Below, in pieces: positions 14,388-32,331 of a stretch of 46,561 bases of DNA (positions are counted from its first letter, which is position 1; every line of letters begins with the position of its first letter). Below the pieces are notes generated by a model that saw nothing but the letters and a program-made list of their open reading frames with translations, had not been told where the DNA came from and made no database searches. Where the stretch lies: assembly GCA_022710935.1 (NCBI GenBank), contig JAKLFY010000049.1, positions 1 through 46,561 of the forward strand, in the 5' to 3' direction. This DNA comes from Verrucomicrobiota bacterium. GTDB lineage: Bacteria > Verrucomicrobiota > Verrucomicrobiia > Limisphaerales > J093. The position numbers and the translations under genes were made by a program.

Positions 14388-14456
14388 AGGAGGTGATTGC
14401 TGCACATGCAAAGGCCAGTCTGGCCCACGCATCGGCGATGGCAAGCGCGAAGCGCG

Positions 14457-14597
14457 CGGTGCGTCTGGTTGTTGTCGGTGTTCTGTCGCCCGGTGAGGGC
14501 ACCGGGCCTAAAACGGATGGAGATGGCCGGTGTAGGCCGCGTGCCCCCACGCGGCGCATACTCGATTCCCGCCGACAACCTCCAGATGCACTGCGAA
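14457..14597. repeat. Dispersed repeat family A, copy 1
   Basis: About 140 bp that recurs in inverted orientation at 23652-23790 at roughly 90% identity by eye. It carries two strong hairpins, CCCGGTG-AGGG-CACCGGG and GCCGCGTG-CCCC-CACGCGGC. It lies in the gap between the PAS gene and the small membrane-anchored gene; no separate gene is seen here. Confidence 0.85.
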
Positions 14598-23651: not shown

Positions 23652-23790
23652 CGCAGTGTATCTGGAGGTTGTCGGTGGGAATCGAGTTTGCGCCGCGTGG
23701 GGGCACGCGGCCTACAGCGGGAGTCTCCATCCTTTGTAGGCCCGGTGCCCTCACCGGGCGACGGAACACCGCCAACAACCCGATGCACCG
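23652..23790. repeat. Dispersed repeat family A, copy 2
   Basis: The inverted partner of the copy at 14457-14597. Hairpins are GCCGCGTG-GGGG-CACGCGGC (23692-23711) and CCCGGTG-CCCT-CACCGGG (23741-23758). It fills most of the 241-bp gap between tsaB and the isomerase-like gene and may terminate the upstream run. Confidence 0.85.
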
Positions 23791-30534: not shown

Positions 30535-32331
30535 TCACTTCAGGTTCTCCTCGGTGTAGAGCGACAGTTCGATGAGGCGTTCGAGGATGTCGGCGGGGGG
30601 CAGCCCGGCGAAATTCTTGGCAACGAGTTCCTTGGCGAAGAGCCGGCAGATATAGCGGAGCTTCAGCGCCTTGTTGCGGGAGGCGAAGACGAAATCCCGG
30701 TGCCCGTTGTTGATCACCACCACGTTCTGGTCAGGCTGGTACCGGGAACGCCAGAGCTCGCCGGGCGCCTTCTGAAACGTGTAGCTCGGGATGCCTTGTT
30801 TGGTGGCGTCCCTGGATTGATTCTCCGGAAGAAGCGAGTCGGTGACCGTGATCAAGCCCTCAGCCGAGCATTCGATGTCCGCCTGCTTCACGGTCAGGCC
30901 CAGCCGGACCAGCCCAGGGTCCGAGGGGGCCTTGAAACTCACAATCTCGCCATCGGCGTTTTCCAGGGCACCCTCGCCTTCAACAATGACCCACCGAAAC
31001 GCAAGGTCGCGCTCGACCAAACGATTCGAGCGGTCTCTGGCAATCGCGCGAAGCCTCTTGGCGCCACCCACGGGAATGACACTCGATGCCGGTGAAATCC
31101 GGACCGAGAACAGGGGCCCCGCGTAGTCGAAGAAGTCTTTTTGGACCGGTTCGGGCTCCTCGCCCGTCAGCCCTTGAACACCGTCGTTCAACTCGATCGA
31201 GTCTCCGTCGCCTCCCGCGGGGGTTCCCGCCGCGGCCTTGGATCGCCTGGCGCCGGCCTGGCGAAGATCGAACCAGTCGTATTCCTCGGCCGGGAGGATC
31301 AGCAGGGCTTCTCGGAGCGCTTTATGGACGGAGCGCAGAACCTCGCGGCTGGTCTGTTCCTCCTCGGCCCGCTTTTGCTCCTCGATGAGGCGGAGCAGCT
31401 CGGTCTCGATCGGCCCCAGTTCCTCCGTCAACCGATGGTAGGCCTCGTCCTGGATGATGCCGCTCCGGGTTCCGGGAGTGAGGCTCAGATGCGGCGCATC
31501 GAGAATCCCCTGGAGATAACCGCTGGTCCAGGGGGGCCGGGCAAACTCGGGCAAGGCCGAGAGACTTTCGATCACCCGCGTACCCCGGCGGTACAGCCCG
31601 ACTGCGTTGGCCGGGTCCGGACGGGCCAGGTAGACCTCGACGTAAAGATCGCTCTGGGGCAGCCGGCTGACTTCGTGAAGCAGGCGCCCTTCGAATTGAC
31701 GGGGTTCGACCTTGAACTCGGCCCGCGCGGTGCGGTCGAGCACGCGGATTTCGACGCCGGAGTTTCGGATGCGGTCCCGCAGTTCCGAGGCCAGATACCA
31801 CTGGATCTTCTCGCCACTGAATTGCTTGATGCCTGACAGGATGTTTCTGATCAGGAGCTCCGTGCCCGGCTCCGGCAGCAGCAGGCGCTTCTGCGTGATG
31901 CGGTAGCCGGGATCGCCCTTCTTCATGCGCATCTGGTAGGTCCTGCCATCGGCACCGGCCGAAGTGAGGACCAGTTCCTCTCCCACCGTCCAGAAGCTCA
32001 GAAGCCCGATGCCGAACTCGCCTTGAATCCCCGGTGCGCCCTCGGCCTTGAGGCGTTTCTTGATCGAATCGCAGATGTGCGTCGCGACGTACTCGAAATC
32101 GGGCAGACCCCGATCGTTGCGCCGGATGCCTTCGCCGTCGTCTTTGATGCGCAGAAAATGGACTCCGTGTTCCTTGCCGCGAACCAGCGTGATGTGTTTG
32201 GCCCGGGCGTCGATGCTGTTTTCGACGAATTCCGCGACGGCTTTCAGCGGATTGCTCTGGGACAGTGCGATGATCCGGATCGCATTCCAGTTGTCGCCAA
32301 TCCGCAGTTTGCCGGAATCGTGGTCTTTCAT
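30535..32331 (-). CDS. GHKL (HSP90/MORC-like) ATPase with internal Ig-like segment
   Basis: A 598-residue protein with an N-terminal GHKL ATP-binding fold. N box is AEFVENSIDARA (E34, E37, N38, D41); G1 is IKDDGEGI (D64-G68); the G-rich lid is GEFGIGLLSFW (104-114). The next block continues as an HSP90/MutL/MORC transducer-like region, with LTPGTRSGIIQDEAYHRL then a charged coiled helix ending in the KRAEEEQTSREVLRSVHKAL region. An Ig-like or Big-type beta segment lies at about 407-497 (FSVRISPASSVIPVGG...). A conserved-looking C-terminal helical end follows (KALKLRYICRLFAKELVAKNF). There is no signal peptide. Standalone MORC-like ATPases are known near restriction or defence systems, but no nuclease or methylase is here. 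It lies 25 bp after the sugar importer and may be cotranscribed with it. Confidence 0.7.
   Translation of the reverse strand: MKDHDSGKLRIGDNWNAIRIIALSQSNPLKAVAEFVENSIDARAKHITLVRGKEHGVHFLRIKDDGEGIRRNDRGLPDFEYVATHICDSIKKRLKAEGAPGIQGEFGIGLLSFWTVGEELVLTSAGADGRTYQMRMKKGDPGYRITQKRLLLPEPGTELLIRNILSGIKQFSGEKIQWYLASELRDRIRNSGVEIRVLDRTARAEFKVEPRQFEGRLLHEVSRLPQSDLYVEVYLARPDPANAVGLYRRGTRVIESLSALPEFARPPWTSGYLQGILDAPHLSLTPGTRSGIIQDEAYHRLTEELGPIETELLRLIEEQKRAEEEQTSREVLRSVHKALREALLILPAEEYDWFDLRQAGARRSKAAAGTPAGGDGDSIELNDGVQGLTGEEPEPVQKDFFDYAGPLFSVRISPASSVIPVGGAKRLRAIARDRSNRLVERDLAFRWVIVEGEGALENADGEIVSFKAPSDPGLVRLGLTVKQADIECSAEGLITVTDSLLPENQSRDATKQGIPSYTFQKAPGELWRSRYQPDQNVVVINNGHRDFVFASRNKALKLRYICRLFAKELVAKNFAGLPPADILERLIELSLYTEENLK

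Follow-up and report, generated by a model that had tools for sequence, protein, structure and literature searches.

Introduction

A GHKL ATPase domain coupled to an S5-type domain is an engine common to HSP90, MutL, topoisomerase II and the MORC/paraMORC proteins, and GHKL-S5 clamps are found among chaperones, in mismatch repair, among topoisomerases and MORC silencers, and in several defense systems. Among the closest described proteins are the paraMORC families of Iyer, Abhiman and Aravind (2008; PMC2292703). GHKL-S5 proteins that carry C-terminal extensions of their own have been linked there to restriction-modification, and some of these proteins lack conserved neighbors; the signature motif of the MORC S5 domain, GhXhhpXXRhl, comes from the same source (PMC2292703). 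A second point of reference is VcSduA, a GHKL-nuclease fusion of Shedu type I-D with a proven role in defense (PMC12137116).

Here we analyze a gene that joins such an engine to an Ig-like domain, found in a stretch of Verrucomicrobiota DNA of 46,561 nucleotides (the window; contig JAKLFY010000049.1). The gene is a member of a coherent family without a name, for which the searched libraries and open papers gave no description. It behaves as a mobile, dispensable gene that is under purifying selection while present, and it has spread off the species tree. At roughly even odds (a probability of about 0.5) we read its product as a paraMORC-like, ATP-gated dimeric GHKL-S5 clamp that has spread as a solitary accessory gene. 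Conserved, mobile, standing alone and partnerless, with an intracellular Ig domain, the family would be a compact system for asking what a lone clamp does.

Results

The gene and its product

The features of the gene are collected in Table 1. The plus-strand reading of 30535-32331 is interrupted by stops, and comparison of the window gene with the copy from the same genus gave a dN/dS of 0.11. The first-pass annotation had placed at this locus a rare intracellular fusion of a GHKL ATPase with an Ig-like domain, which might be an undescribed single-gene defense or chromatin-like factor. The locus is real and well beyond chance, with an intact ORF of 598 aa and full-length relatives under selection (see below), and the fusion itself is upheld as unusual; the predicted lack of a signal peptide also agrees with the N terminus, which is hydrophilic (MKDHDSGKLRIGDNWN).

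The sole Pfam match in the window protein is its N-terminal ATP site (HATPase_c_3 on residues 30-131, E 1.1e-10, 42.1 bits vs a cut-off of 25), which was found in 31 of 34 family members. The NCBIfam library gave weak matches to MutL and HSP90, both far under their cut-offs (37.6 bits vs 180 for the MutL equivalog), and no equivalog above cut-off, while the PADLOC 2023 models gave no match up to E 1. No paper on a GHKL-Ig protein was found in the open literature; as most subscription papers lay outside that search, this negative is weak evidence of novelty.

Table 1. Features of the GHKL-S5-Ig gene and protein, in window coordinates.
Feature	Coordinates	Strand	Residues and remarks
GHKL-S5-Ig ATPase gene	30535..32331	minus	598 codons + stop; ATG start; single unbroken frame
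N-terminal GHKL (Bergerat) ATPase domain	31762..32331	minus	residues 1-190; Pfam HATPase_c_3; HSP90 N-domain fold
N box EFVENSIDA	32206..32232	minus	residues 34-42; 29/29 near-full-length members
G1 motif DDGEGI	32125..32142	minus	residues 64-69; 29/29 near-full-length members
G2 motif / ATP lid QGEFGIGLLSF	31993..32025	minus	residues 103-113; invariant
S5-type middle (transducer) domain and long helix	31297..31761	minus	residues 191-345; hhalign to HSP90 and MutL; model on HSP90 N+M
Loop LTPGTRSGIIQD with Arg289	31447..31482	minus	residues 284-295; candidate catalytic (gamma-phosphate) arginine, role inferred
Acidic variable linker	31117..31296	minus	residues 346-405; predicted disordered; pLDDT 26-42 across 341-400
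Ig-like (Big_2-type) beta sandwich	30835..31116	minus	residues 406-499; two models and PDB matches
Basic conserved C-terminal domain	30538..30834	minus	residues 500-598; strands, then three helices; pLDDT 43-80
Invariant C-terminal motif	30694..30711	minus	residues 541-546: N541, H544, R545, D546; alignments A1 and A3

The family

A scan with one genome per species yielded 43 family loci with identities of 53-96%, the majority being full length. Their bins are labeled Verrucomicrobiota, Kiritimatiellota, Beta-, Gamma- and Alphaproteobacteria, Acidobacteriota and, once, Bacteroidota; all named members come from metagenome-assembled genomes, so these phylum labels carry some bin error (loci L029 and L062, discussed below, are an example) and are unsafe on short contigs. 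The complete members all share the GHKL-S5-Ig-helical architecture. An alignment of 34 members has a mean column identity of 65% and about 80 invariant positions, which begin at the ATP site and continue into the C-terminal domain. Mean pairwise identity is highest in the GHKL domain (70%), followed by the C-terminal domain (64%), S5 (58%), the Ig domain (52%) and the linker (42%); the value for the C-terminal domain accords with the conserved helical tail proposed from the window alone. In five pairs dN/dS was 0.05-0.14, which is strong purifying selection. These identities and low ratios indicate that the architecture is old and has been retained, and is no accident of a single genome.

The ATP site and the S5 domain

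The N, G1 and G2 motifs, which had been read as intact in the window protein, are so in 29 of 29 near-full-length members, and the same holds for G3 (GT, residues 156-157). Within the N box, the roles known from the GHKL family predict that Asn38 coordinates Mg-ATP and that Glu34 is catalytic. These motifs and the Bergerat fold are the features of the GHKL superfamily, and the S5-type transducer that follows, which was recognized in profile alignments and in the model, is that of a two-domain GHKL-S5 ATPase. The first-pass annotation was correct in its GHKL and Ig parts and did not name this middle domain (about residues 191-345) between them.

The engine has two near relatives. In a Foldseek search the model of residues 12-325 was best matched by the N and middle (N+M) domains of HSP90 (E 2e-12), and VIA-align superposed 273 residues on them with a Z of 16.2 and an rmsd of 10.6 A, which we read as a different hinge between both domains; the GHKL domain alone fits the HSP90 N-domain over 163-178 residues at 2.4-3.4 A (Z about 16). 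The profile comparisons spanned GHKL and S5 in both cases, hhalign reaching HSP90 over residues 31-345 (E 2e-9) and MutL over residues 25-359 (E 5e-11). Since both alignments run through the two domains, sequence cannot decide between HSP90 and MutL, and kinship with HSP90 only was dropped as an interpretation of the profiles once a fairer MutL profile had given an equal length and a better E-value. By sequence, then, the engine is equally near MutL and HSP90, and the fold search puts HSP90 first. A profile of the middle domain (A4) had no significant match in the PDB. Arg289, which is invariant in the 34-member alignment, lies in a loop that falls near the HSP90 sequence PLNISRE in the hhalign register, and it is this register, not a measurement, that makes it a candidate equivalent of the arginine in the HSP90 catalytic loop.

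The linker, the Ig-like domain and the C-terminal domain

Two AlphaFold2 models were available, one of the whole protein (mean pLDDT 70, pTM 0.43) and a second of residues 396-598 with 39 relatives. The former passes from the GHKL and S5 domains along a helix that extends to residue 345, through a disordered linker (mean net charge -8.9 across members) and a seven-strand sandwich, to a less certain C-terminal part. The sandwich is found in both models at residues 409-497, with a pLDDT of 77-91 in the first (residues 411-490) and 84-96 in the second, and it superposes on bacterial Ig-like domains with a Z of 10-11 and an rmsd of about 2 A over 83-93 residues; its matches are the Big_2 modules 7quz and 7r3t, Ig domains of galactosidase and S-layer proteins, and LigA (8gyr). 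The Ig-like segment that had been proposed at 407-497 was thus recovered by structure prediction, and the models rule out the possibility, raised at the time, that it might not form a beta sandwich. Searches with the named Ig, PKD and Big Pfam profiles did not place it, just two members reaching PKD (best E 0.021).

With a net charge that averages +3.6 across the family, the C-terminal domain is basic; it has no Pfam or PADLOC match to a nuclease, its fold being modeled with moderate confidence. By eye, its succession of strand, INxxH and three helices, with INxxH...LF... in that order, resembles the C-terminal domain of HSP90; the hhalign E-value is 0.6 and there is no pairwise significance, so that the likeness is a visual one without statistical support.

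These likenesses bear on two explanations of what the protein does. It may, tentatively, be a chaperone or assembly factor of the HSP90 kind that serves one specific client, the Ig domain binding either that client or a co-factor. The top structural match, the position of the Arg289 loop and the C-terminal layout all point in this direction, as does the distribution of HtpG itself, since PF00183 (HSP90/HtpG) was found in 0 of the 14 genomes of the window's bacterial family (G000-G013) vs 87 of the 115 genomes that were sampled across the phylum. However, genomes of that family without the gene are also without HtpG, so that there is no pattern of replacement, and PF00183 at E 0.1 matches none of the 34 members; the insignificant C-terminal similarity and the equal nearness of MutL by profile also argue against a chaperone. 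The second explanation, an auxiliary MutL-like factor in DNA repair or DNA topology that works with housekeeping nucleases encoded elsewhere, we consider unlikely. MutL is the best relative of the N-terminal domain both by single sequence and by profile, the charge of the C-terminal domain would suit such a role, and one adjacent co-directional gene (G178) encodes a DEDD exonuclease, but the MutL score is far from the cut-off, no nuclease or MutL domain was recognized in the C terminus, the host genome has a MutL of its own (L002), and the distribution of the family is patchy.

Distribution, transfer and decay

Full-length copies occur in 4 of the 14 genomes of the window's bacterial family, with no others among 58 relatives, and 288 Verrucomicrobiota genomes hold three intact copies and one relic. 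In the tree, the sister group of the window clade consists mainly of betaproteobacterial copies (support 100/99), and the window clade stands apart from the other members of its phylum; a single Verrucomicrobiota clade was rejected by the AU test with all rows (p 0.0105) and also with rows chosen for larger contigs (p 0.003), a set in which the window's same-genus contig measures 10.9 kb. The Acidobacteriota are split as well (AU p 1.6e-7). We do not take this split as proof, because the gene order at L029 is that of the betaproteobacterial bin L062: at these two loci, labeled Acidobacteriaceae and Betaproteobacteria, respectively, the family gene is followed by an identical order of downstream genes, so that contamination of one bin or the other is probable.

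Decay has taken several forms. Locus L059 has lost the C-terminal half of the gene and L063 has an internal deletion, while the relic in G116 (L068 1498-3217) retains the 3' end only, in two frames, and directly adjoins a RecQ-like helicase ORF. In G001 a second, decayed copy (L135 6143-6313, G001:C159) is a 57-codon fragment, abrupt at both sides, with the intact copy elsewhere in the genome. Loci L053 and L056 carry frameshifts that may stem from sequencing error.

The vehicle of transfer was sought in several ways. Plasmid, phage and viral-contig collections contained no full-length copy, and the PHROGs match was confined to the GHKL part. An integron gene cassette was rejected, as an attC-like pair was present in 0 of 39 downstream regions (chance expectation 0.44). 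The empty-site comparison gave one scattered shared gene and no clean empty site; none was obtained for the window locus, where the neighboring alcohol dehydrogenase gene was confined to the same genus among ten genomes searched.

Two further observations concern other sequences of the window and its relatives. A dispersed repeat (window 14450-14535 and 23718-23790), about 80 nt long and with a GC-rich hairpin at its core, is REP- or MITE-like and has at least 40 copies in its own genome (40 listed of 190 candidates); it is present in G001 too. A xylose-isomerase-like gene (L023 10439-11269; G000:C13:14282-15106; G009:C132:5348-6169) has 93% identity between genera, yet the flanking DNA is not shared, which gives it the look of a mobile gene.

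Gene neighborhoods

The window gene starts 25 nt past the stop codon of a co-directional gene for the periplasmic binding protein of an upstream ribose-type importer (Peripla_BP_4, BPD_transp_2, ABC_tran), and the order is kept on the same-genus contig. That the gene is an accessory functionally tied to this importer is nevertheless very improbable, because the order is lost outside the genus, where the neighbors are wholly different: nuoG-like, mscS-like, acrB-like, GGDEF-EAL, btuF-like, aldo-keto reductase and sigma-54 activator genes among others. Each Pfam family in a scan of 118 near neighbors was present in at most three, and when all flanking ORFs were clustered, sharing between loci other than sisters was confined to SNF2 helicases and some generic pairs. 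Homologs consistently placed in housekeeping operons, which would have spoken against the earlier proposal, were not seen, the neighbors varying clade by clade, and the lack of a nuclease partner noted at the window locus extends to the family, in that no nuclease, methylase, restriction operon or other partner gene recurs across the surveyed neighborhoods.

SNF2 helicases adjoin the family gene only at L030 and within a single clade of Alphaproteobacteria. A DpdE, Zorya or DISARM partner was rejected at these loci, as the SNF2 neighbors match the DpdE and ZorD models as generic helicases, far under the NCBIfam equivalog cut-offs. Some toxin-antitoxin genes, two integrases and, at a greater distance, a Tn3 transposase were also found near family genes. 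On a Saprospiraceae-labeled contig an ORF for a tyrosine recombinase (phage integrase family) follows the family gene after 13 nt (L033 3543-4358).

Is the gene then a single-gene defense against phages or plasmids, in which the clamp would sense or entrap foreign DNA, or the Ig/C-terminal part would sense a phage protein, and ATP-driven closure would block replication? We regard this as possible, and the family as a candidate of this kind. The patchy, horizontal and decaying distribution fits an accessory gene and leaves room for defense; GHKL-S5 proteins have been linked to restriction-modification (PMC2292703) and VcSduA is a proven case (PMC12137116); and toxin-antitoxin, SNF2 helicase, integrase or transposase genes lie near some copies. 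Against it, PADLOC gave no match, no nuclease, methylase or helicase partner recurs, and no enzymatic effector domain was recognized. Moreover, every folded domain is strongly conserved and slow-evolving, with no hypervariable recognition region or other arms-race signature seen, unlike in many defense proteins. As the family has no fixed neighbors, a single-gene defense candidate like this would be missed by co-localization screens.

Discussion

A working model

The paraMORC-like clamp that we favor would, by analogy with its relatives, operate as follows. The soluble GHKL-S5 protein would dimerize, and binding of ATP in the GHKL domain would close the N-terminal domains of the two subunits together, with Arg289 of S5 completing the active site, after which ATP hydrolysis would reopen the clamp. 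The flexible acidic linker would tether the Ig-like domain and the basic helical C-terminal domain, and these two may supply partner binding and constitutive dimerization, although the moderate confidence of the C-terminal model makes its part in dimerization a guess. The client of the clamp could be DNA or protein. For the purpose of such a clamp, we give a paraMORC-like role against foreign DNA or phage about one third, HSP90-like assembly or chaperoning of one client somewhat less, and other roles the rest. A bolder proposal, which we think doubtful, is that the family represents a class of bacterial immunity or genome-guarding ATPases that is new, moves by horizontal transfer and consists of a single gene, in which an HSP90/MutL-type clamp would act without a nuclease partner on a target recognized by its intracellular Ig domain.

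Comparison with known systems

The ATPase had been assigned to an HSP90/MORC type, and of this assignment the HSP90-like half stands and the MORC half does not. The S5 signature motif of MORC proteins is absent from all 34 members, for which reason we reject membership in MORC, and the MORC-type neighborhood of SFII helicase, nuclease or methylase genes was not found either, the SNF2 helicases described above being the sole approach to it; a search of the phylum with the Morc6_S5 domain was uninformative, as it matched nothing, controls included. With HSP90/HtpG the family shares the fold of the N and middle domains and a conserved arginine near the corresponding catalytic loop, but it has an Ig domain and a disordered acidic linker and does not significantly match the C-terminal domain of HSP90. 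MutL/MLH is the closest GHKL protein by sequence, with a profile alignment over GHKL and S5, whereas no MutL C-terminal dimerization/endonuclease domain was recognized in the window family, which has the distribution of a solitary accessory gene.

The Big_2-type domains 7quz, 7r3t and 8gyr (LigA) have the same fold as residues 409-497, but they are extracellular modules of surface proteins or carbohydrate enzymes, whereas the Ig domain of the window protein is fused to an ATPase without a signal peptide. VcSduA of Shedu type I-D is likewise one bacterial protein that unites a GHKL ATPase with a clamp-like middle domain (PMC12137116); it ends in a Shedu nuclease, and the window protein ends in an Ig sandwich and a helical domain in which no nuclease was recognized.

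Where paraMORC proteins carry a nuclease or TIR domain, the window family has an Ig-like domain and a helical C terminus, and a restriction-modification neighborhood is lacking, in a comparison made with paraMORC1-5 by description only. The general description of a paraMORC nonetheless applies to the family: an N-terminal GHKL domain with intact motifs and an S5 domain without the MORC motif, followed by a conserved C-terminal extension of its own, in a patchy and laterally mobile gene that, like some members of paraMORC3, stands alone without conserved neighbors.
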